Source: Rugamonas violacea
GTDB taxonomy: Bacteria > Pseudomonadota > Gammaproteobacteria > Burkholderiales > Burkholderiaceae_D
DNA length: 64,000 nt
Reading direction: 5' to 3'
Assembly (NCBI RefSeq): GCF_016461825.1
Contig: NZ_JAEMNU010000037.1
Location: forward strand, 114,034 to 178,033
Positions 26,439-45,470 of this stretch are shown piece after piece. Under the pieces are notes generated by a model. That model made no database searches. It saw nothing but the letters and a program-made list of their open reading frames with translations, and had not been told where the DNA came from. The translations under genes were made by a program, and so were the position numbers. Position 1 is the stretch's first letter; each line of letters opens with the position of its first letter.

Positions 26439-26505
26439 GTTGACGACGACGGCCGGCGCCGCTGGCGGCCGGACCATAAAGCAAGAACCACACTGGGGAG
26501 ACGAT

Positions 26506-28182: not shown

Positions 28183-28194
28183 GAGGGCTGCGGC

Positions 28195-28758
28195 ATGGGC
28201 GCTTTGCCGGTAGTGACGTCGGCCTCGCCGCAGGTGGCGGCGCAGTACCTGACCTTTTTGCTGGGGGCCGACATGTTCGCCATCGGCATCCTGGCGGTCA
28301 AGGAGATCATCGAGTACGGCGGCGTGACGGCGCTGCCGGGCATGCCGGCCTGTATCAGCGGCGTCATCAACCTGCGCGGCGCCGCCGTGCCGGTGCTCGA
28401 CCTGGCGCGCCGCCTCGACCGCGCGCCCGGTCCGGTGACCAAGCGCACCTGCATCATCGTGCTTGAGGTGGCGGCCGACGACGGCGCCTTCGTCATCGGC
28501 ATCCTGGTCGACGCGGTGCAGGCGGTGGTCGACATCGGCGCCGCCGACATCGAGCCGGCGCCCAGCTTCGGCGCCCAGGTGCGCGCCGAGCTGTTGCTGG
28601 GCATCGGCAAGATCGGCGGCCGCTTCGTCCTGCTGCTCGACGTGCAGCACGTCGTCGCCGGCAGCGAGATCGCCGCGCTGGCCGCCGCCGGCGGCGCGCC
28701 GCCGCCGCTCGACACGGAATTGGCCGCGCCGGCCGCGGCGGAACCGGCCGCGCCCTGA
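28195..28758 (+). CDS. cheW: Coupling protein CheW (second copy)
   Basis: A 187-aa CheW paralogue, clearly homologous to the one at 22197: [42 protein letters not shown] and [14 protein letters not shown]. It carries an Ala/Pro-rich tail (~25 residues) absent from the first copy. Being 12 bp behind a receptor gene, it probably couples that receptor or the next one. Confidence 0.92.
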
Positions 28759-29062
28759 GCCGACCCGGCCGCGCCAGGCCGCCAGGCCGCCGTGCGATCG
28801 CCCGGCGCGGCGCGCCGTGGACGCCGGCGCCGCTGCGATTGTCAACCCGGCCCAGGTGCTGGCCGACGCCGGCCGGCGCGCCCGCGCCGCCTCGCCGGCG
28901 GCATGCGCGGGCGCGGATGCGACAAGGTGGTTTTTGGGGAGAATTGCCGTCCATTATTACGGCACAATGGCTTCTGCTTGTCCCCGCGTTCCCCCCGCCG
29001 CCGCCGCGATCCGCAGGTCCGTCCTGCCGCCTTGCCTCGGCCGCCACCCTGAGGAGTTGGCC
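28759..29062. other. Intergenic region before the third receptor gene
   Basis: About 300 bp without a gene. It includes a 6-bp inverted repeat TGCCGT / ACGGCA (28945-28964) in an AT-richer patch. A weak sigma28-like arrangement (GTGGTTTT, 11-nt spacer, GCCGTCCA) overlaps it. GAGGAG at 29051-29056 is the ribosome binding site of the next gene. Confidence 0.4.
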
Positions 29063-30547
29063 ATGTTGAGACGGATGAAAATGGAGACCCGGCTGCAGCT
29101 GGGCCTGGGCACCATCGTGCTGTTGGTGGTGCTGCTCGGCGTGGTCGCCTTCGCCAAGCTGAACGCCTTGCAGGGCCACTGGGACGAGATCGAAAATGTC
29201 ACCATGGTGCGCAAGGACGCCGTGCTGGCCGTGGTGCGCGCCCACGGCGACGCCGTCCACCACTTCAAGAACTACGTCCTGCGCGGCGGCGACAGCGCCG
29301 CCAAGTTCCGCGCCGACCTGCTGGCCATCGACAAGGCGGTCGCCAGCTATCAGCTGCGTGGCGAGCTGAGCAACGATGAGCAGACCCAGTTGAACGAAAT
29401 TCGCAGCGGCAGCAAGGCCTATCTCGACAGCATGCTGGAGCTGGAGGCGCTGCGCGCCAAGGGCGCCGGCGTGGCCGAGCTGGACAAGGCGGCCAGGGGC
29501 GCCGACGCCGTCATCGCCGCCGCCAGCGACAAGCTGTTGCTGATCAACGCCGCCGAGACGCGCCACGAGTCGGAGCAGATGGGCAGCGTCGCCGAGTCGG
29601 CCAAGCGGCTGATCCTCGCCGTCGATGTCGCCATCGCCGTGGCCGGCTGCCTGCTGGCCTGGTGGTTGTCGCGCAGCCTGGGCCTGGTGGTGCGCGACGT
29701 GCAGCAGGTGGTGGCCCAGCTGGCCGGCGCCTCGCAGGAGGTCAGCGCCACCGCGCAAACATTGTCGCAGGCGTCCAGCGAGCAGGCCGCCAGCGTCGAG
29801 GAGACCAGCGCCTCGATCGAGCAGATGAGCGCCTCGATCGCCCAGAACGCCGAGAACGCCAAGCTGACCGAAGGCATGGCGACCCAGGCGGCGCAGGAGG
29901 CGGCGCGCGGCGGCGAGGTGGTCAAGGCGACGGCGGCGGCGATGCGGCAGATCGCGCTGAAGATCGGCATCATCGACGACATCGCCTACCAGACCAACCT
30001 GCTGGCGCTGAACGCCGCCATCGAGGCGGCCCGCGCCCACGAGCACGGCAAGGGCTTCGCCGTGGTCGCCGCCGAGGTGCGCAAGCTGGCCGAGCGCAGC
30101 CAGGTGGCGGCGCGCGAGATCGGCGAGGTGGCGGCCAACAGCGTGCAACTGGCCGAGCAGGCCGGCGTGCTGCTCGACGCCATCGTGCCGGCGATCCGCA
30201 AGACCTCCGACCTGGTGCAGGAGATCGCCGCCGCGTCGGAGGAGCAGTCGTCCGGTGTGCGGCAGATCAACAGCGCGGTCGGCCAGTTGAGCCAGACCAC
30301 CCAGCTCAACGCCGCCAGCTCGGAGGAGCTGGCCGCCACCGCCGAGGAGATGAGCGCCCAGGCCGAGCAGCTCGAACAGCTGATGCGCTTGTTCCGCCTG
30401 CACGTGGTCGAGGCGGCGCCGGCGCGCGCGTCGGTGCGGCCGACGGCGATCCGCGCCGGCCAGGCGCGGCGCGACACCCGGCCGGCGCGCAAGCTGGCCT
30501 TCGGCGCCGACGGCGGCCCGGACGAAAACCACTTCACCAAGTTCTAA
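29063..30547 (+). CDS. Methyl-accepting chemotaxis protein with C-terminal pentapeptide
   Basis: A 494-aa receptor. Helices ~11-32 and ~184-205 bracket a ~150-residue helical sensor. No clear HAMP segment lies between the second helix and the signalling domain, whose tip [20 protein letters not shown] is near 307. The last residues are HFTKF, matching the tail of the receptor at 26506 and the general CheR/CheB-tether consensus. The signalling halves of the two receptors are very similar, suggesting duplication with divergence of the sensor. GAGGAG precedes the ATG. It is the last gene of the cluster. Confidence 0.92.
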
Positions 30548-30615: not shown

Positions 30616-31419
30616 TTACTGCTTGACGAACTTCAGCGTCATGCGGTCGCTCTCGCCGATCGCCGTGTAGCCGGCGCGGTTCTCGTCCTTGTTGGCGTAG
30701 GTCGGCGGCAGCGCCCAGACGCCGCTCTTGTGGTCGGCCTTGTCCTTGGGATTGGCGTTGATCTCCGACTTGGCCGCCAGCTTGAAGCCGGCCGCCTCGG
30801 CCAGGCCGATCACGTAACTCTCCGACATATAGCCGGTGCTGGCCGTGGCGTCCTGCTTCTGGCCGGCCGGCAGGCGGTGCTCGACCACGCCGAACACGCC
30901 GCCCGGTTTCAGGCTGGTGTGGACGCTGGCGAACAGCGCCTTCAGATTCTCCGGTCCGCTCGGAATCCAGTTGTGGATGTTGCGGAAGGTGAGCACCATG
31001 TCGGCGCTGCCGGCCGGCGCGAACTCGTACTTGCGCGGCGGCTCGAAGACGCCCAGTTGCACCTTGTTGAACACCGTCGGCCGCGCGTTCAGGCGGGTCA
31101 AAAAGCGCTCGGCGCCGCGCCGCGCGTCGGCGTCCGGCGAGGCCAGCTCGTTGCCGGCGGCGATCAGCTTGCCGCGTTCGCGCAGATACGGCGCCAGGAT
31201 CTCGGTGTACCAGCCGCCGCCCGGCGCCAGCTCGACCACCGTCATGTCCGGCTTGATGCCGAAGAAGGCCAGCGTTTCATACGGATGGCGGGCGCCGTCG
31301 CGCAGCGCGTTGGCCGGCGTGCGGTTCTCGCCGGCGATGGCGGCCTTCAGCGCATCGTCGGCCTGGGCCATGCCGGCCATGCCGCACAACAGGGCGCTGG
31401 CCAGTAGTAGTCGTTTCAT
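30616..31419 (-). CDS. Exported class I methyltransferase-like protein
   Basis: A 267-aa protein with a clear signal peptide (MKRLLLASALLCGMAGMAQA) and a mature domain with a SAM-methyltransferase outline: a VVELAPGGGWYTEIL loop like motif I, FRNIHNW, and LKPGGVFGVVEHR like the later motifs. Related proteins are annotated as predicted methyltransferases. Export to a compartment without known SAM is odd, so it may have lost or changed activity. The start at 31419 has AAGAGGAG upstream; a longer ORF start at 31467 would disrupt the signal. Convergent with the chemotaxis cluster. Confidence 0.82.
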   Translation of the reverse strand: MKRLLLASALLCGMAGMAQADDALKAAIAGENRTPANALRDGARHPYETLAFFGIKPDMTVVELAPGGGWYTEILAPYLRERGKLIAAGNELASPDADARRGAERFLTRLNARPTVFNKVQLGVFEPPRKYEFAPAGSADMVLTFRNIHNWIPSGPENLKALFASVHTSLKPGGVFGVVEHRLPAGQKQDATASTGYMSESYVIGLAEAAGFKLAAKSEINANPKDKADHKSGVWALPPTYANKDENRAGYTAIGESDRMTLKFVKQ

Positions 31420-31999
31420 GCAATGTCTCCTCTTGGTGGGTGGGATGCTGCGATGGGCGGGCGACACGGCGGCGGTCGCCCTGCGCGATCATCGGCCAAC
31501 TGCGCCGGCCGGTCAAGTGAATCCGCCGTGCCGCCGCGCTGTCGGGCGTCCGCCGTTCGGCCGCGCCGTTCGGCCACGCCGTTCGGCCGGCGCCGCCGAT
31601 AGTGTCCGGCTAGCGTACGCGGACACCCGGCGGACACTCTGCGGACACTTTTGCAAGAATTTCCCGGCACGGCGCGACACGGCGCGGCCGCCCGGCCGGA
31701 CCTCACGCCTGCGCTCTTCCCTGCCAGAATGCAAGTCGCTCCCGGGCTTGGCTCCCGGCTTTGGCGCCTGGGCCGGCTCCGCCGTTTCGTGGCATAAATA
31801 TTGCCTATCTCGTTTCTTATTTTGCTGGTAATGTTGCCCCTCATTACGCGATGTTGAGCTTCGGCGTGATGGCAAAACACCCGTAAGTTGTGGAACCAGC
31901 CAGTAGCACAAGCCGTGGCGCACAAGACCCGGCGGAACCGAGCAAGACCCCGCGTGCGGCCCGTCCGCAACCCGATGCGTGAGTTTTTTTGGAGATACT
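31420..31999. other. Long leader/promoter region of the TldD-MoxR cluster
   Basis: About 580 bp with no supported gene. Three near copies of CGCCGTTCGGCC occur at 31548-31585. An AT-rich patch at 31790-31850 probably carries the promoter for the large downstream operon, although no clean -35/-10 pair is assigned. GGAG at 31991-31994 is the ribosome binding site of the first gene. Confidence 0.4.
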
Positions 32000-33637
32000 A
32001 TGGAACGACGTGCATTTCTCAACATCAGTAGTTTGGCCCTGGGCAGCATGTTGCTGCCCGCCTTCGGACGCGCCATCGCGGCCGAGGAGCTGCTCAAGCC
32101 GGTGGCCCTGCAGTTCAAGAAAATGCTGGCCGACACCGCGTTGACGGCGGCCACCCAGGCCGGTGCCAGCTATTGCGACGTGCGCGTCGGCCGTTATCTG
32201 AACCAGTTCATCACCACCCGCGACCTGAACATCGAAAACGTCACCAACACCGAGTCGGCCGGGGTCGGCGTGCGCGTCATCGCCAACGGCGCCTACGGCT
32301 TCGCCGCCACCAACGACATGTCGCCCGACGGCGTGGCCGGCGCGGCGCGCCAGGCGGTGGCGATCGCCAAGGCCAACGCCAAATTGGGCGGCGAGCCGGT
32401 GCGCCTGGCGCCGGTGAGCGGCGTCGGCGAGGTGGCCTGGGCCACGCCGTACAAGAAGGATTGGCGCCAGGTCGCCATCAAGGAGAAGACCGAGTTGCTG
32501 ATCGCCGCCAACAAGGCCGGCATGGACGGCGGCGCCAGCTTCATGCAGTCGCTGCTGTTCCAGGTCAACCAGCAGAAGTACTTCGCCTCGACCGACGGCT
32601 CCTACATCGACCAGGACCTGCACCGCCTGTGGATGCCGGTGTTCGCCACCGCCGTCGACAAGACCAGCAACAAGTTCCGCTCGCGCCAGGGCTTGTCCTC
32701 GCCGGTCGGCATGGGCTACGAATACCTCGACGCGCGGCCGGAAGACAAGGTCAAGGCGGCCGGCGGCATCTGCACCCTGTACAAGAACTCCTACGACCTG
32801 ATCGAGGACGCCCGCGCCTGCGGCCAGCAGGCCAAGGCCAAGCTGAGCGCCAAGTCGGTCGAGCCGGGCAAGTACGACCTGGTGCTCAGCCCCGAGCACA
32901 TGTGGCTGACCATCCACGAGTCGGTCGGCCACCCGACGGAACTGGACCGCGTGCTCGGCTACGAGGCCAACTTCGCCGGCACCAGCTTCGCCACGCTGGA
33001 CAAATGGCAGAGCAAAAAATTCAAGTACGGCTCGGAGCTGGTCAACATCGTCGCCGACAAGACCACGCCGGGCTCGCTGGCCAACGTCGGCTACGACGAC
33101 GAGGGCGTGCAGTGCAAGCGCTGGGACATCATCAAGGACGGCATCCTGGTCAACTACCAGGCCACCCGCGACCAGGCCCACATCATCGGCGAGAGCGCCT
33201 CGCACGGCTGCTCCTACGCCGACAACTGGAGCAGCGTGCAGTTCCAGCGCATGCCCAATGTGTCTCTGCAGGCCGGCAAGAAGAAGCTGACCCCGGACGA
33301 GATGATCAAGGACGTCAAGAAGGGCATTTACATCGTCGGCGACGGCTCCTTCTCGATCGACCAGCAACGCTACAACTTCCAGTTCGGCGGCCAGCTGTTC
33401 TACGAGATCAAGGACGGCAAGATCGGTGCGCAATTGGAGGACGTGGCCTACCAGTCCAACACCCAGGAGTTCTGGAACGCCTGCACGGCGATCTGCGATG
33501 AGCGCGACTGGCGCATGGGCGGTTCCTTCTTCGACGGCAAGGGCCAGCCCAGCCAATCGAGCGTGGTGTCGCACGGTTCGAGCACCACCCGCTTCAACGG
33601 CATCAACGTCATCAACACCGCCCGCAAGATCGGCTAA
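32000..33637 (+). CDS. Tat-exported TldD-type metallopeptidase, copy 1
   Basis: A 545-aa TldD/PmbA-family protein. The N-terminus MERRAFLNIS is a twin-arginine motif followed by a hydrophobic stretch and an AIA-AEE type cleavage site, so export in folded form is predicted. The zinc site is intact: HESVGHPTELDR, with HExxxH starting at His306. A C-terminal CDERDWRMGGSFFDG-GQPS segment corresponds to the Cys-containing end of TldD. TldD-TldE pairs degrade unfolded peptides (microcin B17 leader, CcdA in E. coli) in the cytoplasm, so a Tat signal is unusual. ATG at 32000 has GGAG five bases upstream. It starts a ten-gene block. Confidence 0.88.
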   Translation: MERRAFLNISSLALGSMLLPAFGRAIAAEELLKPVALQFKKMLADTALTAATQAGASYCDVRVGRYLNQFITTRDLNIENVTNTESAGVGVRVIANGAYGFAATNDMSPDGVAGAARQAVAIAKANAKLGGEPVRLAPVSGVGEVAWATPYKKDWRQVAIKEKTELLIAANKAGMDGGASFMQSLLFQVNQQKYFASTDGSYIDQDLHRLWMPVFATAVDKTSNKFRSRQGLSSPVGMGYEYLDARPEDKVKAAGGICTLYKNSYDLIEDARACGQQAKAKLSAKSVEPGKYDLVLSPEHMWLTIHESVGHPTELDRVLGYEANFAGTSFATLDKWQSKKFKYGSELVNIVADKTTPGSLANVGYDDEGVQCKRWDIIKDGILVNYQATRDQAHIIGESASHGCSYADNWSSVQFQRMPNVSLQAGKKKLTPDEMIKDVKKGIYIVGDGSFSIDQQRYNFQFGGQLFYEIKDGKIGAQLEDVAYQSNTQEFWNACTAICDERDWRMGGSFFDGKGQPSQSSVVSHGSSTTRFNGINVINTARKIG

Positions 33638-33655
33638 GCCCTGGAGAGTTTCGCG

Positions 33656-34993
33656 ATGAAGAATCTGAATCAAGAAGAAGCGCAACGCATCTGCGCCAAA
33701 GTGCTGGCCTATTCCAAGGGCGACGAGTGCGAGGTCAAGCTGAACGGCAGCCGCAAGGGCAACATCCGCTACGCCCGCAACAGCGTCTCCACCGCCGGCC
33801 TGGTCGAGGACACCCAGTTGTCGGTCGCCGTCTCGTTCGGCAAGAAGCAGGGCGTGGCCACCATCAACGAGTTCGACGACAAGTCGCTGGAGAAGGCGGT
33901 GCGCCGCGCCGAGGACCTGGCCCGCCTGGCGCCGGAGAACCCGGAGTTCATGTCGACGCCGGGCAAGCAGGCCTTCAAGGCCAGCGCCACCTTCAGCGCC
34001 AGCACGGCGGCGATCGATCCCGAGTTCCGCGCCCAGGTGGCCGCCTATAGCATCGAGAACAGCCGCAAGAACCAGTTGGTGGCGGCCGGCTTCTTCGCCG
34101 ACACCACCGCCTTCGAGGCGATCGCCAATTCCAACGGCGTCTGGGGCTACCAGCAGGACACCTCGCTCGACTTCACCGTCACCGTGCGCACCGAGGACGG
34201 CCGCGGCTCCGGCTGGGCCAAGCGCAGCGCCGGCGACGTCGCCAAGTTCGACCCGCGCGAGGCCTCCAACGTGGCCATCGAGAAGGCGCTGCGCTCGGTC
34301 GAGGCGAAGGCGCTGGAGCCGGGCCGCTACACCGTGATCCTGGAGCCGGCGGCCACCTCCGACCTGCTCGGCTACATGTTCAGCGGCTTCGACGCGCGCC
34401 AGGCCGACGAGGGCCGCAGCTTCCTGTCGAAGAAGGGCGGCGGCAACCGCCTGGGCGAGAAGCTGTTCGACCAGCAGGTCAACGTCTGGGCCGACCCGTG
34501 GGACAAGGACGTCGCCGTGCTGCCGTGGGACAGCAACAGCATGCTGGCGCGCGAGCGCATGGACATCATCAAGAACGGCCGCGTCAGCGCGCTGGACTAC
34601 TCGCTGTTCTGGGCCAAGAAGCAGGGCAAGCGCGCCGTCGGCCAGCCGGGCAACATCATCATGGCCGGCTCCAACAAGTCGACCGCCGAGCTGATCGCCA
34701 ACACCAAGAAGGGCGTGCTGGTCACCCGCACCTGGTACATCCGCATGGTCGACCCGCAGTCGGTGCTGCTGACCGGGCTGACGCGCGACGGCACCTTCTA
34801 CATCGAGAACGGCAAGATCAAGCATCCGATCAAGAACTTCCGTTTCAACGAGAGTCCGGTCAGCATGCTCAACAACATCGACGAGTTGGGCCGGCCGGAG
34901 ATCGTCGCCGGCGACGAGTCCAGCTACCAGTTGCTGATCCCGGCGATGAAGGTGCGCGACTTCAACTTCACTTCGCTGTCCGACGCGGTGTAG
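33656..34993 (+). CDS. TldE/PmbA-like protein, copy 1
   Basis: A 445-aa protein of the TldE (PmbA) type, the non-metal half of TldD-TldE proteases; length matches PmbA. It shows RYARNSVSTAG near the N-terminus, FEAIANSNGVWGY, RTEDGRGSGW, LEPGRYTVILEPAA, and a C-terminal NESPVSMLNNIDELG. There is no HExxxH site. It begins 18 bp after the TldD-like gene and has no signal peptide, although its partner carries a Tat signal. It may ride out with the partner as a folded complex, a known Tat behaviour, or stay cytoplasmic. Confidence 0.87.
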   Translation: MKNLNQEEAQRICAKVLAYSKGDECEVKLNGSRKGNIRYARNSVSTAGLVEDTQLSVAVSFGKKQGVATINEFDDKSLEKAVRRAEDLARLAPENPEFMSTPGKQAFKASATFSASTAAIDPEFRAQVAAYSIENSRKNQLVAAGFFADTTAFEAIANSNGVWGYQQDTSLDFTVTVRTEDGRGSGWAKRSAGDVAKFDPREASNVAIEKALRSVEAKALEPGRYTVILEPAATSDLLGYMFSGFDARQADEGRSFLSKKGGGNRLGEKLFDQQVNVWADPWDKDVAVLPWDSNSMLARERMDIIKNGRVSALDYSLFWAKKQGKRAVGQPGNIIMAGSNKSTAELIANTKKGVLVTRTWYIRMVDPQSVLLTGLTRDGTFYIENGKIKHPIKNFRFNESPVSMLNNIDELGRPEIVAGDESSYQLLIPAMKVRDFNFTSLSDAV

Positions 34994-35040
34994 AAAACGG
35001 CGCGCCGGTGCGCCCGCACACCCCAGCGACGTAAAGCTGG

Positions 35041-35067
35041 GGACGGACCCGCTGGGTCCGTCCCCGG
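35041..35067. repeat. Palindromic element, copy 1
   Basis: A 12-bp perfect stem GGGGACGGACCC / GGGTCCGTCCCC with a GCT loop, followed by GGGTTTT. It is nested inside an outer 8-bp inverted repeat ACACCCCA (35020-35027) / TGGGGTGT (35079-35086). A second copy lies at 45499-45525. It may work as a terminator or mRNA-processing element between the two TldD/TldE pairs. Confidence 0.85.
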
Positions 35068-35148
35068 GTTTTGCCGTGGGGTGTAAGCAGCGCACCGGCC
35101 CGCCGGCAGCACCCCAAACACCCCAACAAATCAGCAACAGGAGTCAAA

Positions 35149-36786
35149 GTGGAACGACGTTCATTTCTCAAAATAAGTGCGGCGACGGGCGGCGCCATGC
35201 TGGTGCCGGTGTTCGGCAACGCCATCGCCGCCGAGGAGCTGCTCAAGCCGATGGAGGTGCGCTTCAAGAAGAGCCTGGCCGACGCCGCGCTGAACGCCGC
35301 CAGCAAGGCCGGCGCCAGCTACTGCGACGTGCGCATCGGCCGCTACATGAACCAGTTCATCACCACGCGTGAGCTGAACGTGGAAAATATCGTCAACACC
35401 GAATCGTCCGGCGTCGGCGTGCGCGTCATCGCCAACGGCGCCTACGGCTTCGCCGCCACCAACGACATGTCGGCCGACGGCGTGGCCGGCGCGGCGCGGT
35501 TGGCGGTGTCCATCGCCAAGGCCAACGCCAAGCTGGGCGGCGAGCCGGTGCGCCTGGCGCCGGTGAGCGGCGTCGGCGAGGTGGCCTGGGCCACGCCGTT
35601 CAAAAAGGATTGGCGCATGGTCGCCATCAAGGAGAAGGCCGAGCTGCTGATCGCCGCCAACAAGGCCGGCATGGACGCCGGCGCCAGCTTCATGCAGGCC
35701 ATGCTGTTCCAGGTCAACCAGCAGAAGTACTTCGCCTCCACCGACGGCTCCTACATCGACCAGGACATCCACCGCCTGTGGGCGCCGTTCACCGCCACCG
35801 CCGTCGACAAGGCCAGCAACCGTTTCCGCACCCGCGACGGCCTGTCCTCGCCGGCCAGCATGGGCTACGAGTTCTTCGACGCGCGGCCGGAGCACAAGCT
35901 GCGCGCCGCCGGCGGCGTCACCACCTTGTACCGCGGCGGCTACGACCTGGTGGAGGACGCCCGCGCCGCCGGCCGCCAGGCGCGCGAGAAGCTCGGCGCC
36001 AAGTCGGTCGAGCCGGGCAAGTACGACCTGGTGCTCAGCCCCGAGCACCTGTTCCTGACCATCCACGAGTCGGTCGGCCACGCCACCGAACTCGATCGCG
36101 TGCTCGGCTACGAGGCCAACTACGCCGGCACCAGCTTCGCCACGCTGGACAAGTGGCAGAGTAAAAAATTCAAGTACGGTTCGGAGCTGGTCAACGTGGT
36201 CGCCGACAAGACCACGCCCGGTTCGCTGGGCCACGTCGGCTACGACGACGAGGGCGTCGCCGCCAAGCGCTGGGACCTGATCAAGGACGGCATCCTGGTC
36301 AACTACCAGGCCACGCGCGACCAGGCCCACATCATCGGCGAGACGGCCTCGCACGGCTGCTCCTACGCCGACAGCTGGAGCAGCGTGCAGTTCCAGCGCA
36401 TGCCCAATGTGTCGCTGGCGGCCGGCAAGAAGCCGCTGACGCCGGACGAGATGGTCAAGGACGTCAAGAAGGGCATCTACATCCTCGGTCGCGGCTCGTT
36501 CTCGATCGACCAGCAGCGCTACAACTTCCAGTTCGGCGGCCAGTTGTACTACGAGATCAAGGACGGCAAGATCGGCGCGCCGTTGGAGGACGTGGCCTAC
36601 CAGTCGAACACCCAGGAGTTCTGGAACGCCTGCTCGGCGCTGTGCGACGAGCGCGATTGGCGCATGGGCGGCTCCTTCTTCGACGGCAAGGGCCAGCCCA
36701 GCCAAGTCAGCGCCGTGTCGCACGGGTCGAGCACCACGCGCTTCAACGCCATCAATGTGATCAACACCGCTCGCAAGATCGGCTAA
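35149..36786 (+). CDS. Tat-exported TldD-type metallopeptidase, copy 2
   Basis: A 545-aa paralogue of the gene at 32000, with exactly the same length. The Tat motif is closer to consensus (MERRSFLKIS). The zinc site is HESVGHATELDR with His306 at the same position as in copy 1, and the Cys-containing C-terminal segment is kept. Long blocks are identical between copies (for example KFKYGSELVN and YNFQFGGQL), while substitutions are spread out, as for an older duplication in which both copies stay under selection. The start is GTG at 35149 with AGGAG six bases upstream; no ATG fits. Confidence 0.88.
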   Translation: MERRSFLKISAATGGAMLVPVFGNAIAAEELLKPMEVRFKKSLADAALNAASKAGASYCDVRIGRYMNQFITTRELNVENIVNTESSGVGVRVIANGAYGFAATNDMSADGVAGAARLAVSIAKANAKLGGEPVRLAPVSGVGEVAWATPFKKDWRMVAIKEKAELLIAANKAGMDAGASFMQAMLFQVNQQKYFASTDGSYIDQDIHRLWAPFTATAVDKASNRFRTRDGLSSPASMGYEFFDARPEHKLRAAGGVTTLYRGGYDLVEDARAAGRQAREKLGAKSVEPGKYDLVLSPEHLFLTIHESVGHATELDRVLGYEANYAGTSFATLDKWQSKKFKYGSELVNVVADKTTPGSLGHVGYDDEGVAAKRWDLIKDGILVNYQATRDQAHIIGETASHGCSYADSWSSVQFQRMPNVSLAAGKKPLTPDEMVKDVKKGIYILGRGSFSIDQQRYNFQFGGQLYYEIKDGKIGAPLEDVAYQSNTQEFWNACSALCDERDWRMGGSFFDGKGQPSQVSAVSHGSSTTRFNAINVINTARKIG

Positions 36787-36794
36787 GGGACAAA

Positions 36795-38132
36795 ATGAAA
36801 CAGCTGAACCAGGAAGAAGCCAAACGTATCAGCGACAAGGTGATCGCCCTGTCGCGCGCCGACGAGTGCCGCGTCTCGATCAGCGGCAACCGCAACGGCA
36901 ATATCCGCTACGCCCGCAACAGCGTCTCCACCTCCGGCGTGGTGGACAACACCCAGCTCAGCGTCAGCGTCGCTTTCGGCAAGCGCCAGGGCACCGCCTC
37001 GGTCAACGAGTTCGACGACCAGTCGCTGGAAAAGGCGGTGCGCCGCGCCGAGGACGTGGCGCGGCTGGCGCCGGAGAATCCGGAGTTCCAGCCGGCCATC
37101 AAGCAGCAGCAGTACAAAGCCTCGTCGACCTATAGCGCGGCGACCGCCGCCATCGACCCGGACTTCCGCGCCGAGGTGGCGGCGCACAGCATCAACGCCG
37201 CGCGCAAGCACAATCTGGTGGCGGCCGGCTTCTTCTCCGACACCACCGGCTTCGAGGCGGTGGCCAATTCGAACGGCTTGTTCGGCTACCAGGAGTTGAG
37301 CAACCTGGGCTTCACCGTCACCACCCGCACCGAGGACGGCCGTGGCTCCGGCTGGGTCACCCGCTCGGCCAACGACGCCGCCAAGTTCGATGTGCGCGAG
37401 GCTTCGGCCGTGGCCATCGACAAGGCGCTGCGCTCGGTCGAGGCGAAGGCGCTGGAGCCGGGCCGCTACACGGTGATCCTGGAGCCGGCCGCGACGTCGG
37501 AGCTGATCGGCCGCATGTTCGGCGCCTTCGATGCGCGCCAGGCCGACGAAGGCCGCAGCTTCCTGTCGAAGAAGGGCGGCGGCAACCGCCTGGGCGAGAA
37601 GCTGTTCGACCAGCAGGTCAACGTCTGGGCCGACCCGTGGGACAAGGACGTGCCGGTGCTGGCCTGGGACGGCCAGTCGATGCTGCCGCGCGAGCGCACC
37701 AGCGTGATCAAGGACGGCCGCATCGAGGCGCTCGACTACAGCCTGTTCTGGGCCGCCAAGCAGGGCAAGCGCGCCAGCGGCCGGCATGGCAATATGATCA
37801 TGTCGGGCGGCGGCAAGTCGACCGAGGAGCTGATCGCCTCGACCAAGAAGGGCATCCTGGTGACCCGCACCTGGTACATCCGCCAAGTCGATCCGCAATC
37901 GCTGCTGCTGACCGGCTTGACGCGCGACGGCACCTTCTACATCGAGAACGGCAAGATCAAACACCCGGTGAAGAACTTCCGCTTCAACGAGAGCCCGGTG
38001 TCGATGCTCAACAACATCGAGGAGCTGGGCAAGCCGGTGGTGATCGGCGGCGACGAGGTGCGCTACCAGATGTTGATCCCGCCGATGAAGGTGCGCGACT
38101 TCAATTTCACCTCCTTGTCGGACGCGGTGTAG
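36795..38132 (+). CDS. TldE/PmbA-like protein, copy 2
   Basis: A 445-aa paralogue of the gene at 33656, again of identical length, without a metal motif or signal peptide. Shared blocks include RYARNSVSTS, DEGRSFLSKKGGGNRLG and KVRDFNFTSLSDAV. The gap to the preceding TldD-like gene is only 8 bp, and AAGGGA precedes the ATG. Together with copy 1, the two pairs (32000-34993 and 35149-38132) form a 3-kb tandem duplication, so two hetero-oligomers or mixed complexes could form. Confidence 0.87.
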   Translation: MKQLNQEEAKRISDKVIALSRADECRVSISGNRNGNIRYARNSVSTSGVVDNTQLSVSVAFGKRQGTASVNEFDDQSLEKAVRRAEDVARLAPENPEFQPAIKQQQYKASSTYSAATAAIDPDFRAEVAAHSINAARKHNLVAAGFFSDTTGFEAVANSNGLFGYQELSNLGFTVTTRTEDGRGSGWVTRSANDAAKFDVREASAVAIDKALRSVEAKALEPGRYTVILEPAATSELIGRMFGAFDARQADEGRSFLSKKGGGNRLGEKLFDQQVNVWADPWDKDVPVLAWDGQSMLPRERTSVIKDGRIEALDYSLFWAAKQGKRASGRHGNMIMSGGGKSTEELIASTKKGILVTRTWYIRQVDPQSLLLTGLTRDGTFYIENGKIKHPVKNFRFNESPVSMLNNIEELGKPVVIGGDEVRYQMLIPPMKVRDFNFTSLSDAV

Positions 38133-38139
38133 TTCGCCC

Positions 38140-38760
38140 ATGGCCAGCTACGACTTCTACTTCACGCGCCTGACCTACGAGTCGGGCGACTGGGACGTGG
38201 ATATCCGGATGCCGAGCAATGTGCTCAATTCCCTGGTCGAGTACACCACCCTGCGCGTCGATCCGGTGGAGCGGATCGTCGCGCTGTCCGACCCGAAGAT
38301 GCTGGAGGCGCCGTTCTGCTATTTCGCCGGCCACAAGCTGGTGCAGTTCAGCGCCGCCGAACGCAAGAACCTGGAGCGCTACGTCAAGGGCGGCGGTTTC
38401 CTTTTCGTCGACGACTGCAACCACGACATCGACGGCCTGTTTGCCAAGTCCTTCGAGGCCGAGCTGGCGCGCATCTTCGGCGCCAAGGCGCTGCACAAGA
38501 TCGCCAACAACCATCCGCTGTATTCGAGCTTCTTCCATTTCGACGGCCCGCCCAACACCAGCGTGGAGCTGAACGGCTGGGGCGACGACCTGGTGCACGA
38601 TTATCTGAAGGCGATCGAGGTGGGCGGCCGGTTGCGGCTTTTGTACAGCAACAAGGACTACGGTTGCGAGTGGGACTACGACTTCCGCAACAAGCGCTGG
38701 CTGGTCATCGATAACACCCGCTTCGCCGTCAACATCATTCAATACGCATTGGGAGCCTGA
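38140..38760 (+). CDS. DUF4159 family protein
   Basis: A 206-aa protein matching the DUF4159 type: FYFTRLTYESGDWDVD at the start, LERYVKGGGFLFVDDC in the centre and NKRWLVIDNTRFAVNII at the end. The domain is related to the glutamine-amidotransferase-like folds and is often fused to, or next to, BatA-like and MoxR genes. No signal peptide or membrane helix is seen. It begins 7 bp after the TldE-like gene and ends 2 bp before moxR, so it belongs to the same transcript. The biochemical role of the family is not known to me. Confidence 0.75.
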   Translation: MASYDFYFTRLTYESGDWDVDIRMPSNVLNSLVEYTTLRVDPVERIVALSDPKMLEAPFCYFAGHKLVQFSAAERKNLERYVKGGGFLFVDDCNHDIDGLFAKSFEAELARIFGAKALHKIANNHPLYSSFFHFDGPPNTSVELNGWGDDLVHDYLKAIEVGGRLRLLYSNKDYGCEWDYDFRNKRWLVIDNTRFAVNIIQYALGA

Positions 38761-38762
38761 TA

Positions 38763-39785
<1,023 letters not shown>

Positions 39786-39792
39786 GGGCGGC

Positions 39793-40686
39793 ATGCTGCA
39801 AACGTCGGCCCTGATGGCGCACGCCACCGATCTGAACCTGATCATCCGCCATGTGCTGGCCGGTCTCGGCCACGGCATGCACGCCGGCCGCGAGCGCGGC
39901 GCCGGCGTCGAGTTCTCCGAGTACCGCGCCTACGCGCCGGGCGACGAGTGGCGCCGGGTCGACTGGAAGCTGCTGGCGCGGGCCGACCGCTACTACGTGC
40001 GCGAGGCCGAACGCGACAGCCACGTCGCCGTCTGGCTGTGGCTGGACGCCAGCGCCTCGATGGCCGAGCCTAGCCGCCAGACGGCGGGGCTCGACAAGCT
40101 GTGGTACGCCCGCACCATGCTGGCCTGCCTGGCCGCCGTGGCGCAGCGCCAGGGCGACGCCTTCGGCCTGGTGGTGTGCGGCGGCGGCCGCGTCGAGTTC
40201 ACCCCGGCCGGGCGCGGACCGCGCCAGTTGCAGCGCGTGCTGGCGCAACTGGCCCGCGTCACGGCGCAGGGCGCGCTGCCGGACGAGGCGACCTTGCGCG
40301 CCAATCTGCACTTCGCCCGCGCCCCCAGCCTGATTTTCGCCGCCAGCGATTTCCTGGAGTGGCCGTCGCCGCTGAGCGAGGCGCTGCTGCGTCTGCGCCA
40401 TCTACAGCATGACGTGCGCGTCCTGGCGCTGCGCACCCAGGCCGAGGTGGACGCCAGCTTCAAGGCCGGCGCCGGCTACCGCGATCCGGAGCGGGCCGAC
40501 GGCCTGCACCGCATGGGCCAGGCCGAGCGCGAAGCCTACCGGCAGGCGCTGGCCAGCCACTTCGAGGCGATGGCCACCAGCTGCCGCCAGCACGACATCG
40601 TGCGCTGCGAGGCGCGCATCGAGCAGCCGCTGGCGCTGGTGCTGCGCAGTTGGGTGCAACTGGCGGGGGCGCGCGCAAGATGTTGA
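39793..40686 (+). CDS. DUF58 family protein, MoxR partner
   Basis: A 297-aa protein with the DUF58 core: [20 protein letters not shown], then [17 protein letters not shown], then a VWA-like strand with a metal-site motif DASAS (DxSxS). DUF58 proteins are regular partners of MoxR ATPases. The start at 39793 has AAGGGCGG upstream. It begins 7 bp after moxR and its 3' end overlaps the BatA-like gene by 7 bp, indicating tight coupling. Confidence 0.88.
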
Positions 40687-41789
40687 GTACTCAAGTGTTG
40701 TGGTGGCTGGCACTGCCCGTGCTGCTGCTGCCGATCTGGTGGCACCGGCAAAAGCGCCAGCGCCTGAAGGCCGAGCCGCTGGCCACCGCGCGCTTCCTGC
40801 CGGCCGCCGCGCCCGAACAACTGCGCGTGTGGCGTTGGCGCGAGCTGGTATTGCTGCTGCTGCGCTGCCTGCTGCTGCTGGCGCTGATCGCCTGGCTGGC
40901 CGCCACCGTGCTGCCGTGGCGCGGCGATACCGTATTGCTGGCGCGCGGCGTCGACCAGGTTTGGGCCGGGCAGCGCATCGCCGCCGCCGGCTTCGGCACC
41001 GCCCGCCGCGAGGAGATCGCCGCCGAGGCGCTGCCGCATCTGCTGTCCTGGCTGCGCCAGCACGAGTACCAATGGCGCGCCGACGCGCGCGTGCTGGTGC
41101 TGGCCGGCGTCGGTCAAGTCGCCATGCCGGCGCGCCTGCCGCGCTTCGGCCACGCGGTCCGACTGGAGCTGAAGCCGACATCGGCAATCGTGTCGCCGGA
41201 TGTCGCGGCCCGGGCCGATGCAGTCGCTTCGCCCGCCGCATCGACTTCCGGCGCGCCGGCCGTCGCCGTGGTCGAGCATCGTGTCGCGCTGGCCACCACG
41301 GCGGCGCACGCGCCGGCCTGGCAGGCGCTGTTCGCCGCCTTCAACGCCGGCGCGGACGGCCACTATGTGCTGACCGAAGAACCCGACGCCGCCACCGAAT
41401 TGATCGTCTGGGACCGGCCGCAGTTGCCGCCGCAGGGCTGGCACGCGCCGCTGTGGTGGTTCGGCGCCGGTCCGACACCGCCCGAGCTGGCCGGCGCCCC
41501 GGCGTTGGAGATCAACGGCATCACGCTGCGCTACGCCGACAGCGCGCGCGGCCGCTTGTGGGCCTCGGACGCCTGGCCGGCGCGCGACGCCGAGACGGCG
41601 CGCGCCATCTTCGCCACCTTGCATGCCTTGGACCGCGCCGCGCCGGAGTACCCGGCGCCGGCGCAGGCCTTCGCCGCCGAACGCGGCCTCGGCGTTCCGG
41701 TCGAGGCCAACCCCGCCGCCTGGCTCGGCTGGTTGTTGCTGGCCTTGTTTTCACTGGAACGGATATTCACCCATGCGCGACGCCGCTGA
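40680..41789 (+). CDS. BatA-type N-terminal domain membrane protein
   Basis: A 369-aa inner-membrane protein. The N-terminus (LWWLALPVLLLPIWWH...FLPAAAPEQLRVWRWRELVLLLLR) is the two-helix BatA/'aerotolerance' N-terminal domain. A long periplasmic part follows, without a recognised VWA domain, and a last helix AWLGWLLLALFSLERIF closes the protein. In related clusters this protein is the membrane anchor for MoxR/DUF58 systems. It overlaps the upstream gene by 7 bp and the downstream DUF4175 gene by 17 bp. Confidence 0.8.
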   Translation: MLSTQVLWWLALPVLLLPIWWHRQKRQRLKAEPLATARFLPAAAPEQLRVWRWRELVLLLLRCLLLLALIAWLAATVLPWRGDTVLLARGVDQVWAGQRIAAAGFGTARREEIAAEALPHLLSWLRQHEYQWRADARVLVLAGVGQVAMPARLPRFGHAVRLELKPTSAIVSPDVAARADAVASPAASTSGAPAVAVVEHRVALATTAAHAPAWQALFAAFNAGADGHYVLTEEPDAATELIVWDRPQLPPQGWHAPLWWFGAGPTPPELAGAPALEINGITLRYADSARGRLWASDAWPARDAETARAIFATLHALDRAAPEYPAPAQAFAAERGLGVPVEANPAAWLGWLLLALFSLERIFTHARRR

Positions 41790-43848
41790 TCTCCTGCGCG
41801 GCCGCTTGCGCCGCGCCGTGCTGCGCCGCCGCGCGCCGCTGTGGCTGGCCACGCTGCTGCCGCTGCTGGCCTGCGCGCTGTGCCTGCCCGCCGCGCGCCC
41901 CTACACGCTGGCCGCGCCGCCGCTGTGGGCTGTCTGGTTGCTGTGGGATCTGGCGCGCTGGCAGCGCCGTGTCGGCGCGCAGTGGGCCGCCTGGCTGGAC
42001 GCCGCCGTGCCCGCGCTGGAGGACAGCAGCGCGCTGCTGGCCGGCGCGGCCGAGACACCGATCGCCCGCCTGCAACAAGAACGCCTGCGCACCCGCCTGG
42101 CCGCAACCTTGGGACCGGACGAATACCGCGCCATCGCCCGCTTGCGCGCGCCCGTCGCCGCGCTGTCGGCGTGGCTACCCATGTTGCTGGCCTTGGCCGT
42201 GGCCGGCGCCGCCTGGGGCTGGCAGCAACGCCAGCTGACTGGCGCCGCCGGCGGCCATGCCGCCGCACCGGCCGCGCGCGCCATCGTCGACGGCGAGATC
42301 TACCTGCGCGTCGCGCCGCCGGCCTACACCGGCGTGGCCGCCTTCGAGACGGCCGCACGCGACATCGAGGTGCCGCAGTACGCCGACGTGCGCTGGTGCG
42401 TCAGGAACGCCGGCGGCGCGCAGCCGGTGGTGGAGCTGAGCGACGGCCAGGCGCTGCCGGTCGGCGCCGACTGCGCGCGCTGGCGCGCCGGCGAGTCGAT
42501 TTTCTGGCGCGCCCGGGGCAAGGCCGGCACGCGCTACAACGTGCGCGTGCGGCCCGACCAGGCGCCGCAGGTCAGCGTGGTGGCGCCGAACGAATTGATC
42601 ACCGTGCTGCCGGCCGACGCCGGCGGCGTGCAGTTGGAGCTGAGCGCGCGCGACGACTATGCCATCGTCCGCGCCAGCCTGCATATGACGCTGGCGCGCG
42701 GCAGCGGCGAGAACATCCGCTTCAGCGACCGCGAGGTGCCGCTGCCGGAGTCGGCCGATCCCAAGCTGCGCCACTGGCAGAAGCGCTGGACGCTGGCCGT
42801 GCTGGGCATGGAGCCGGGCGACGAGTTGTACTTCTTCGTGCGCGCCACCGACAACGCGCCCGAGCACGCCCACACCACGCAGTCGCCGACCTACACGCTG
42901 CGCCTGCCCGGCCCGGCCGCCGAGAGCCTCGATGCGACGGCGCTGCCGTCCATGGTCAAGCCGGAGAGCCTGCGCAGCCAGCGCCAGATCATCATGGACA
43001 CCGAGCAGTTGCTGGCCGACCTGCAGGCCAAGCCGAACCTGCCGCGCGCCACGCTGCGCGAACGCAGCGAATCGATCGCCGGCGACCAGGCGCAGCTGCG
43101 GCGCCGTTACGGCATGTTCCTCGGCGAGGAGTCCAGCCTGTTCGGCGACGAGCATGAGCACGAGCATGAGCACGAGCAGGAACACGGCGGCGGACATGCG
43201 GCCGAACACGGCGCGCCCAAGCGCGGCGCCGAGGCGGCCATCATCGCCGAATTCGGCCACGCCCACGACCAGGAGGACAACGCCACCATCTTCGACCCGG
43301 CCACCAAGGCGCTGCTCAAGCGCGCGCTGGCGGCGATGTGGGACGCCGAGAAATCGCTGCGCGCCATCACGCCGAAGTCGGCGCTGGCGCCCGAGTACAA
43401 GGCGCTGGCGGCGATCAAGGAATTGCAGCAGGCCGAGCGCGTGTATCTGCACCGCACCGCCTTCGTGCCGCCCGCGCTGAGGGAAGAGAAGCGCATGAGC
43501 GGCGACATGGTCGGTGCGCTCAGCTACAAGCGCGCCCAGGGCGGCGCCGCCGAGCCGGCGCCGGCCGAGGTGCGCGAACTGGTGCTGGCGCTGGCCGGCG
43601 ACGGCACGCTGCCCGCGCTGTGGAGCAAGTCGGCGCGCGAGATCATCGCCGCCCGCATCACCGACCAGGAACAGAAGCTGGCGGCGCAGCGCGCCGTGCA
43701 GGACGTCGCCGACGGCTGCGCCGCCTGCCGCGCCGTGCTGCGCGCCTGGTTGCGCGGCACGCTGGCCGAGGCGCCCGTGCGCCTGCAGGCGCAACCGCTG
43801 GCCGACACCCCATTCCGCCGCGCCTGGCGCGGCAAGGAGCAGCCATGA
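41773..43848 (+). CDS. DUF4175-type membrane protein with His-rich loop
   Basis: A 691-aa protein. Two hydrophobic helices lie near the N-terminus (~25-60) and one at ~137-155, then a large predicted periplasmic part: a beta-rich region with APPAYTG and RDDYAIVRASL, and a helical C-terminal region. This outline fits the DUF4175 family. Near residues 458-475 is a His/Glu-rich stretch, DEHEHEHEHEQEHGGGH, suited to bind metal. A CAAC motif (DGCAACRA) lies near the end. It overlaps the next gene by four bases (ATGA). Assignment to DUF4175 is from overall shape and context. Confidence 0.72.
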   Translation: MRDAADLLRGRLRRAVLRRRAPLWLATLLPLLACALCLPAARPYTLAAPPLWAVWLLWDLARWQRRVGAQWAAWLDAAVPALEDSSALLAGAAETPIARLQQERLRTRLAATLGPDEYRAIARLRAPVAALSAWLPMLLALAVAGAAWGWQQRQLTGAAGGHAAAPAARAIVDGEIYLRVAPPAYTGVAAFETAARDIEVPQYADVRWCVRNAGGAQPVVELSDGQALPVGADCARWRAGESIFWRARGKAGTRYNVRVRPDQAPQVSVVAPNELITVLPADAGGVQLELSARDDYAIVRASLHMTLARGSGENIRFSDREVPLPESADPKLRHWQKRWTLAVLGMEPGDELYFFVRATDNAPEHAHTTQSPTYTLRLPGPAAESLDATALPSMVKPESLRSQRQIIMDTEQLLADLQAKPNLPRATLRERSESIAGDQAQLRRRYGMFLGEESSLFGDEHEHEHEHEQEHGGGHAAEHGAPKRGAEAAIIAEFGHAHDQEDNATIFDPATKALLKRALAAMWDAEKSLRAITPKSALAPEYKALAAIKELQQAERVYLHRTAFVPPALREEKRMSGDMVGALSYKRAQGGAAEPAPAEVRELVLALAGDGTLPALWSKSAREIIAARITDQEQKLAAQRAVQDVADGCAACRAVLRAWLRGTLAEAPVRLQAQPLADTPFRRAWRGKEQP

Positions 43849-45470
43849 CGGCAACCCTGACCAGTCTGGCCGTGCTGGCCGCCGGCGCGCTCAGCGCGCT
43901 GTTCTACGCGCGCCGCCGACGATGGATCGAGACGGCACTGGTCGGCCTCGCCGGGTTGGCGCTGGCCGCCATGCTGGCCGGCCTGCGCCAGCCGGGTGGC
44001 GTCGCCGCCAACATCACACTGAGCACCGACGCCACCGGCAACGCCAGCGAGGCGGCGCTGTTGGCGGTGCCGCAGGCCGGCGCCATCGTGCTGCGCGGCG
44101 ACGGCCTGCGCGAGGCGCAATGGCGCGACCTGCCGGCCCGTCCGCTGCAATGGAAGCCGGCGGCCGACGCCGAGCTGCTGTGGCTGGACTTCCCGCGCAG
44201 CGTGGCGCTCGGCCGCATGTTCCAGTTCAGCGCGCGGCGCGGCCAGGCGCAAGTCGGCTGGCGTTTGCAGCTGCTGGCCGAGAACGGCCAACTGTTGGCC
44301 GAGGCGCGCGCCGCCGCCGCCACCGACAAGCTGTCGCTGCAATGGCTGCCGCCGCTGGCCGAGGCCATGCTGCTGCAGGCGCGCCTGCTCGACGGCGCCG
44401 GCAAGACCATCGCCGCCGGGCCGGTGCCGCTACAGGTGGTGGCCGCCGCGCCGCTGCAGGTGGTGGGGCGCTTCGACGCGCCGTCGTTCGACGTCCGCGC
44501 GCTGAACCAATTGCTGGCCGACGGCGACGCCGTGCTCGATTGGCAGCTCACCTTGGGCAAGGCCATCGCCCGCGGCGAGACGGCGCGCCTGCCAATGACG
44601 GCGCCGAATCTGCTGCTGGTCGATGCCGCCCATGTCGAGCATCTGAATCCCGCCGCGCGCGCCGCCCTGCTGGCCCAGGTGGGACAAGGTGCGCGCTTGC
44701 TGGTGCTGGGCGCGAACGCGACCGACGCCGGCTTGTGGCAGCGCGAATTCGGTCTGCGTTTGCGGGCGCAGTCGGCCACCACGGAGAAGGAGGAGATGCG
44801 CCAGTTCAGCATCAACGGCACGCCGCTGGCATTGACGCCGGCCGGCCTGAACCCGGACGCGCAGGCCGGCGCCGCCTGGACGGCGGCGGCGCGCGACGCC
44901 AAACAGCAAGCCTGGTTGTGGCAGCGCGACTGGCAGCGCGGCCGCGTGCTGTGGTTGGGTGTGGCCGACTGGCACCGCTACGTCATCAGCGCACCGCAGC
45001 CGCTGGCGCTGTGGTGGCAGCAGCTGCTCGACCAGACGGCGCTGCCGGCGACGCAGAAGAGCGCCTGGCGTCTGCCCGACCCGATGCCCGTGCCGGGCCT
45101 GCGCAGCGAGTTGTGCGGGCAGGGCTTCAAGCCGGGACAAGAGCTGCAACTGGAGGGGATGGCTACGCAGAGATGGCAGGCCCGCGCCGACCAGGCCGAT
45201 GCGGTCTGCGTGGCGCTGTGGCCGCGCGCGCCCGGCTGGCAGAAATTCGCCAGCGCCGGGCAGGAGGGAATGGAGTACATCTACGCCGCCGCCGCCTGGC
45301 CGGCCTGGCAGCGCGCGTTGCGGCGCGACGCCACCGCGCGCTACGCCGCGCGCAGCGAGGTGAAGCCGGTGACAGCCGCTACGATGAACGGCGTAGCCAT
45401 GCCGGCCGCGCCGTTCGCATTACTGTTCGCGCTCTGTATGCTGGTGCTGTGGTGGCGCGAGCAGCGCTAG
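43845..45470 (+). CDS. Large membrane protein of unknown function, end of MoxR cluster
   Basis: A 541-aa protein with two N-terminal helices (MTATLTSLAVLAAGALSALF and a second at ~27-47), a long extracytoplasmic region, and a C-terminal helix (FALLFALCMLVLWWREQR). The middle (LLLVDAAHVEHLNPAARAALL, then GARLLVLGANA) resembles a class I glutamine-amidotransferase-like Rossmann region as found in membrane partners of BatA/MoxR clusters, but no catalytic triad is visible. Its start overlaps the DUF4175 stop, so it is translated with it. I do not recognise a named family. Confidence 0.7.
   Translation: MTATLTSLAVLAAGALSALFYARRRRWIETALVGLAGLALAAMLAGLRQPGGVAANITLSTDATGNASEAALLAVPQAGAIVLRGDGLREAQWRDLPARPLQWKPAADAELLWLDFPRSVALGRMFQFSARRGQAQVGWRLQLLAENGQLLAEARAAAATDKLSLQWLPPLAEAMLLQARLLDGAGKTIAAGPVPLQVVAAAPLQVVGRFDAPSFDVRALNQLLADGDAVLDWQLTLGKAIARGETARLPMTAPNLLLVDAAHVEHLNPAARAALLAQVGQGARLLVLGANATDAGLWQREFGLRLRAQSATTEKEEMRQFSINGTPLALTPAGLNPDAQAGAAWTAAARDAKQQAWLWQRDWQRGRVLWLGVADWHRYVISAPQPLALWWQQLLDQTALPATQKSAWRLPDPMPVPGLRSELCGQGFKPGQELQLEGMATQRWQARADQADAVCVALWPRAPGWQKFASAGQEGMEYIYAAAAWPAWQRALRRDATARYAARSEVKPVTAATMNGVAMPAAPFALLFALCMLVLWWREQR

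Follow-up and report, generated by a model that had tools for sequence, protein, structure and literature searches.

A stretch of 64,000 nucleotides from Rugamonas violacea (NCBI RefSeq assembly GCF_016461825.1, contig NZ_JAEMNU010000037.1, positions 114,034 to 178,033 of the forward strand), referred to here as the window, carries two TldD-like and two TldE/PmbA-like genes, the D-E unit being duplicated with a spacing of ∼3.1 kb. TldD/E is a peptidase that trims unfolded peptides in a closed chamber, and the complex of Escherichia coli is cytoplasmic, a word that is absent from the main text of the paper on its structure. In the window each TldD begins with a putative twin-arginine translocation (Tat) signal that is lacking from its TldE partner. 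All four proteins contain the three PmbA/TldD Pfam domains above the curated cut-offs, and all fall far below the cut-offs of the NCBIfam equivalogs (68–82 of 513 bits for TldD and 55–56 of 438 bits for PmbA).

The host, described as a soil bacterium, encodes six proteins matching PmbA_TldD_1st: the four of the window, a canonical TldD (contig 56) and a canonical PmbA (contig 58). The coding frames of the latter two start without a twin-Arg signal, and as this separate pair is present the window TldEs need not serve a cytoplasmic TldD. Two sets of relatives were used for comparison. The first, 75 loci with two TldDs each (150 TldDs in total), was taken from the best 80 of 263 confirmed stretches in a collection scan and, as only those 80 were kept, consists of close relatives; among them Rugamonas rubra is the nearest named relative of the window (97% identity). 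The second comprised 12 further genomes and their regions, which are the carriers of Tat-type TldDs, other than the window's own genome, drawn from its family, class and phylum. TatC was found in the window's own genome and in all 12 further genomes.

Twin-arginine signals on the TldD proteins

TldD1 starts with ATG at 32000 and TldD2 with GTG at 35149, each with GGAG in front, and their N-termini read MERRAFLNISSLALGSMLLPAFGRAIA-AEE and (V/M)ERRSFLKISAATGGAMLVPVFGNAIA-AEE respectively. In both, [M/V]ERR(A/S)FL(N/K)IS is followed by a hydrophobic segment and then by AIA-AEE. An earlier note on this DNA, made from its letters, had proposed Tat signals on both TldD copies and none on the TldE copies; the former were confirmed at the level of sequence, the gene coordinates being right and the start codon of TldD2 being GTG.

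A Tat rule was applied to the 75 loci, in which RR had to occur within the first 35 residues and to be followed by 13 uncharged hydrophobic residues. It recognized 150/150 TldD starts and none of 7085 internal Met/Val positions in the same proteins. The start [MVL][EQ]RRxF was present in all 150, and a twin-Arg start was found in 19/19 TldDs of the 12 further genomes; the N-terminal motif, on whose conservation in homologues the earlier note had staked its claim beforehand, is thus kept. A loose AxA-type cleavage pattern was located at residues 20–38 in every one of the 150. No variation was seen at R3, R4 or F6 in 57 aligned TldDs, nor in a set of 21 that includes relatives at 63–68% identity; at the DNA level both Arg residues are encoded by several synonymous codons, five for R3 and four for R4. 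The N-terminal extension is missing from the 11 non-Tat TldDs compared.

Curated Tat models gave lower returns. TldD2 scored 21.2 bits with PF10518 (cut-off 22.7) and 15.5 bits with TIGR01409 (cut-off 16.7), and TldD1 had no match to either at E ≤ 0.001. At E ≤ 1, PF10518 matched 7 and TIGR01409 matched 8 of 21 TldDs, all below cut-off, and neither was among the families listed for 14 TldEs (0/14). These models are weaker evidence. Such sub-cut-off scores agree with an N-terminus that is a relic, or a chance RR-hydrophobic segment, on an ordinary cytoplasmic TldD/E; the fixed R3, R4 and F6 beneath synonymous codon change, and the absence of the extension from non-Tat TldDs, make that explanation very improbable.

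TldE1 (33656) and TldE2 (36795) both open MK(N/Q)LNQEEA..., without a hydrophobic N-terminus. The same is seen in the relatives, where the Tat rule recognized 0/146 TldE starts in the 75 loci (147 TldE frames were found and one start was not located) and where 12 starts located in the further genomes were all unsignalled, so that the absence of signals from TldE in the earlier note was borne out. The second TldE of locus L153 was missed by the start pattern, and its printed N-terminus is likewise without a signal. Two of 55 possible upstream TldE starts fitted the Tat rule, both in locus L044, where the sequence by eye is that of the TldD gene in front, in another reading frame. In L072, a metagenome-derived genome, the first TldE frame opens in out-of-frame sequence as if the start had shifted, which may be an assembly error or a real break.

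The third metal ligand and the neighbouring genes

The metal ligands of E. coli TldD, as given in passages of PMC5810440, are His262, His267 and Cys454. The metal motif HE[SNA]VGH was found in 150/150 TldDs, and HExxxH was not found in the TldE frames of L141–L153 or in the two window TldEs on reading. Equivalents of E. coli His262, Glu263, His267, Glu270, Asp272, Gly455 and Lys456 are kept in 31/31 Tat-type TldDs. At the position of Cys454, Asp was present in all 150 Tat-type TldDs of the 75 loci, and an alignment with Cys-type relatives gave Asp in 31/31 Tat-type and Cys in 11/11 non-Tat TldDs. A count over 202 distinct aligned frames yielded 168 with Tat and Asp, 29 non-Tat with Cys, four non-Tat with Asp and one Tat with a gap. 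Two of the five odd frames (L087 and L105) visibly possess RR and were missed by the hydrophobicity threshold; the other three (L118, L121 and L122) are cut at the end of their own sequence records, and by eye match complete Tat and Asp copies in L145, L148 and L149. By alignment, the position of the third ligand holds Asp in every readable Tat-type TldD and Cys in 29/29 non-Tat ones, and Asp512 would be a metal ligand of the Tat-type enzyme. When profiles were compared directly and without gaps, using three canonical sequences, Asp512 fell opposite the Gly after Cys, one residue off; eight intermediates that carry CGKG/A(E/Q)P were taken as decisive and settle the register as Asp512 opposite Cys.

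Among non-Tat relatives the nearest, L152 and L164 (∼41–42% identity), have Cys. In a tree of 36 sequences the combination of Tat signal and Asp needs one change (98 by the Shimodaira–Hasegawa-like approximate likelihood ratio test, SH-aLRT), at a point where, as the tree tool warns, long branches meet; the Tat signal, Asp and gene context lie together on one branch and represent a single event. Replacement of Cys by Asp, as in a Gemmatimonas sp. TldD, is already in print and would give a more thermolysin-like site (PMC5810440); the Discussion of that paper does not take up a signal peptide, operon or partner for that protein, and the link to the Tat signal is new here.

Downstream of TldD/E, genes for DUF4159, MoxR and DUF58 were found in 75/75 loci; 74 of these also have the BatA-like gene, and 73 the gene for the large membrane protein (Table 1). 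DUF4159, MoxR and DUF58 were also present in 12/12 further regions, and ten regions around non-Tat TldDs (L152, L154–L160, L164 and L165) gave no such neighbour at E ≤ 1e-5. The DUF4159 figure for the 75 loci comes from a profile search, as a regular expression alone missed 17/75. An operon of Rhizobium, which is said to contain MoxR and DUF4159 genes, reportedly affects cell envelope integrity when lost.

Table 1. Genes and signal peptides of the TldD/TldE cluster, in positions of the window
Feature	Position	Strand	Remarks
TldD1, Tat-type TldD-like metallopeptidase	32000..33637	+	545 aa; HESVGH; Asp at the third-ligand Cys position
TldD1 twin-arginine signal peptide (predicted)	32000..32083	+	MERRAFLN...AIA before AEE; kept in 75/75 loci
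TldE1, TldE/PmbA-like partner	33656..34993	+	445 aa; no signal peptide and no HExxxH (translation read)
TldD2, second Tat-type TldD	35149..36786	+	545 aa; GTG start; 84% identity to TldD1
TldD2 twin-arginine signal peptide (predicted)	35149..35232	+	(V/M)ERRSFLK...AIA before AEE
TldE2, second TldE-like partner	36795..38132	+	445 aa; no signal peptide and no HExxxH (translation read)
DUF4159 protein	38140..38760	+	206 aa; no signal in the window; GATase/ThuA-like model closest to 4i66
MoxR-family AAA+ ATPase	38763..39785	+	PF07726, E 2.3e-65
DUF58 protein	39793..40686	+	DASAS sequence (von Willebrand factor A (vWA)/MIDAS-like); no membrane segment found
BatA-like membrane protein	40683..41789	+	PF07584 at 20.9 bits against a cut-off of 25.9; counterpart in L144 at 47.9
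Membrane protein related to the DUF4175 protein of L144	41773..43848	+	window copy itself without a Pfam match
Membrane-anchored protein without family, last gene of the run	43842..45470	+	

The BatA-like and other membrane proteins of the cluster would accord with a TldD that is never released, either retained at the inner membrane through a signal that is not cleaved, or targeted by its motif to the Tat complex or a MoxR-membrane assembly without full export, TldE joining on whichever side. With the loose AxA-type pattern in 150/150 TldDs on the other side, this arrangement is considered quite unlikely.

In all 11 loci outside the Oxalobacteraceae, DUF4159 has a signal-like N-terminal extension of its own, which contains RR in L145, L147, L148, L149 and L151 and one Arg alone in the remaining six, where it could be Tat-like or Sec. 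DUF4159 too therefore points to the envelope in most lineages, and the copy of the Oxalobacteraceae either may have become cytoplasmic or may also ride. For the DUF4159 of L106 a GTG further upstream could serve as the start and would add a hydrophobic segment that lacks RR; its relative L107 is without such a start. A structure model of the window protein (predicted local distance difference test (pLDDT) score 72.2, predicted template modelling (pTM) score 0.77) matched 4i66 (Hoch_4089) at E 1.1e-11, the sequence profile match being 1.4e-11, and further matches, ThuA-like and glutamine amidotransferase (GATase)-like, were weak (E 4e-3 or worse). No paper on DUF4159 was found in the openly licensed literature.

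Proposed export of TldE with TldD

A TldE gene stands beside TldD in 75/75 loci and 12/12 further regions. The order is D-E-D-E in most Oxalobacteraceae loci and D-E, D-D-E or D-E-D elsewhere, and a tree with L141, L145 and L150 (and without L148 and L149) suggests separate duplications of TldD alone. In the family search one genome (G161) held two Tat-type TldDs and one unsignalled TldE and nothing else; the same search gave canonical pairs in the 11 others of the 12 further genomes. G161 is a draft in 260 contigs that markers estimate to be 100% complete. A canonical TldD query returned the same three places again, and a canonical PmbA query gave no match, an empty answer that according to the tool shows nothing alone. 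As no other TldD/TldE was found in G161, its TldE has only Tat-signalled partners, unless the draft misses a gene.

According to PMC5810440, E. coli TldD requires TldE for activity and forms an unstable homodimer, and Tat co-export of unsignalled subunits is known for HybOC and PaoABC, as described in part of PMC4273604. Together with G161, these make co-export the most economical reading. The Tat-TldD/plain-TldE pattern, with its changed metal-binding residue, reappears at 63–68% identity in relatives from other orders and classes of the phylum, which makes it probable that both halves leave the cytoplasm as a pair. The earlier note had left a choice between a hitchhiking TldE and a TldD that works alone; the adjacency of TldE, G161 and the need of E. 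coli TldD for TldE favour the first.

Under the second, TldD would be exported as a homodimer or monomer and TldE would stay in the cytoplasm, in keeping with the absence of a signal from every located TldE, with the activity reported for a Sulfolobus TldD homodimer (cited in PMC5810440) and with the several loci that have more TldD than TldE genes. It is judged unlikely, as TldE is kept beside TldD in all of these loci and regions, the TldE of G161 would be left without a partner, and E. coli TldD needs TldE.

The sequences themselves show conserved Tat signals, a TldE that lacks one, the change from Cys to Asp, the cluster of genes and the presence of TatC; assembly before export, hitchhiking, periplasmic action, Asp as a ligand and any role of MoxR and its neighbours are inferred. 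The preferred reading, to which we assign a probability of roughly 0.65, is an envelope branch of TldD/TldE. TldD would fold, acquire its metal and bind the signal-less TldE in the cytoplasm, and the folded pair would then be carried across the inner membrane by the Tat machinery with TldE as a hitchhiker. The signal would be removed at AIA-AEE, and the chamber, with His, His and Asp as metal ligands in place of His, His and Cys, would trim unfolded peptides in the periplasm. DUF4159, MoxR, DUF58 and the membrane proteins would work together with it, probably as a cytoplasmic AAA+/vWA motor and a membrane bridge that would mature, load or feed the enzyme. The Cys-to-Asp change, the DUF4159-MoxR-DUF58 context, the DUF4159 signal in other lineages and the separate canonical pair go beyond the earlier note. 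A fuller version can be put forward only tentatively: a periplasmic peptide-trimming chamber that is assembled in the cytoplasm and that Tat exports intact together with one or two riders lacking a signal (TldE and, in the Oxalobacteraceae, DUF4159), a thiolate-to-carboxylate ligand swap that accompanied the move outside, and a MoxR/vWA motor that matures or feeds the chamber across the inner membrane.

Several observations weigh against an envelope branch. MoxR and DUF58 look cytoplasmic. The DUF4159 of the Oxalobacteraceae starts ∼three residues before its domain and has no signal (L106 excepted), so the cluster neighbours are not uniformly signalled. Loci L141, L145, L148 and L149 contain two Tat-type TldDs and one TldE, and pairing is therefore not strictly one to one. 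The tree indicates that the Tat signal and Asp arose together once, a single event that does not replicate the association. Other conserved Cys residues persist in mature Tat-type TldDs (Cys404 and Cys495), so that avoiding oxidation cannot be the whole story of the swap to Asp. An AlphaFold2 model of TldD2 built on 57 close relatives was unusable (mean pLDDT 37.5), and the Asp site could not be viewed in it. The sub-cut-off curated model scores of TldD2 and the activity reported for Sulfolobus homodimers belong on the same side.

The window proteins resemble E. coli TldD/TldE (PmbA; PDB 5nj5) in the three Pfam domains per subunit, in HExxxH in TldD only and in the conserved active-site Glu/Asp/Lys; the genes of the heterodimer partners lie side by side here. 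They differ in that TldD is ∼60 residues longer with its Tat signal and has Asp at the third-ligand position, in the distance from the equivalog cut-offs and in the gene context. The combination of one subunit that has a signal with one or more that lack it recalls HybOC and PaoABC (PMC4273604); those are redox cofactor enzymes, whereas the putative hitchhiker here belongs to a peptidase. In NorQD a MoxR ATPase and a vWA protein stand next to a metal enzyme, and such proteins drive metal insertion according to PMC13036017; the MoxR ATPase and vWA-like DUF58 (DASAS) beside TldD bring this system to mind. The client enzyme is different, DUF4159, BatA-like and DUF4175-like proteins are additional here, and the likeness, like the role of MoxR in maturing or feeding TldD/E that it might imply, comes from gene order alone. 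Passages of PMC7688217 describe a not-yet-characterized operon of Stenotrophomonas maltophilia (NIPOLPBK_01784-01792) with two TldDs and a MoxR-like ATPase, likened here by description, some genes of which were down in biofilms of all isolates; unlike the present cluster, neither a Tat signal nor Asp is mentioned in those passages. In the openly licensed literature no paper was found that ties TldD, PmbA or modulator of DNA gyrase to a Tat signal.

If a whole branch of the family does act outside the cytoplasm, it would meet a different substrate pool with a defined set of partners, and TldE would be a Tat hitchhiker that is part of a peptidase and not of a redox enzyme. Genomes such as G161, seemingly without a cytoplasmic copy, make the question of co-export directly testable, and the exchange of Cys for Asp suggests a simple structural hypothesis on metal sites that leave the reducing cytoplasm.

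Distribution and flanking genes

A TldD of some kind was found in all 41 relatives searched, and two Tat-type TldDs were present in 20 of the 25 genomes of the genus that were searched, own included. They are missing from the other five (G003, G005, G015, G019 and G021), where the cluster is dispensable or was lost. A search of 398 genomes of the phylum gave 34 that match at E ≤ 1e-22, 13 of them (own included) with Tat-type TldDs above 770 bits, and among 369 genomes of the class drawn another way four matched at E ≤ 1e-60. A search of plasmids returned 50 records, every one below 60% identity; the two that were read (L164 and L165) are Cys-type without a Tat signal. Viral contigs searched with the Tat-type alignment gave 45 pattern matches and no relative among them. 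In L165, a Pseudomonas aeruginosa plasmid, the Cys-type unsignalled TldD/TldE adjoins genes for an ABC transporter, TonB/ExbB/ExbD and a TonB receptor, a different gene context for another branch of TldD.

On the other side of TldD1, the divergent neighbour at 30616-31467 on the minus strand opens MKRLLLASALLCGMAGMAQA-DDALK..., with a Sec-like signal in front of a protein that, judged by eye, resembles a methyltransferase; it had no Pfam match at E ≤ 0.001. Just upstream (26284-30547, plus strand) the translations, read by eye, place a CheW-like protein between two chemoreceptor-like proteins.

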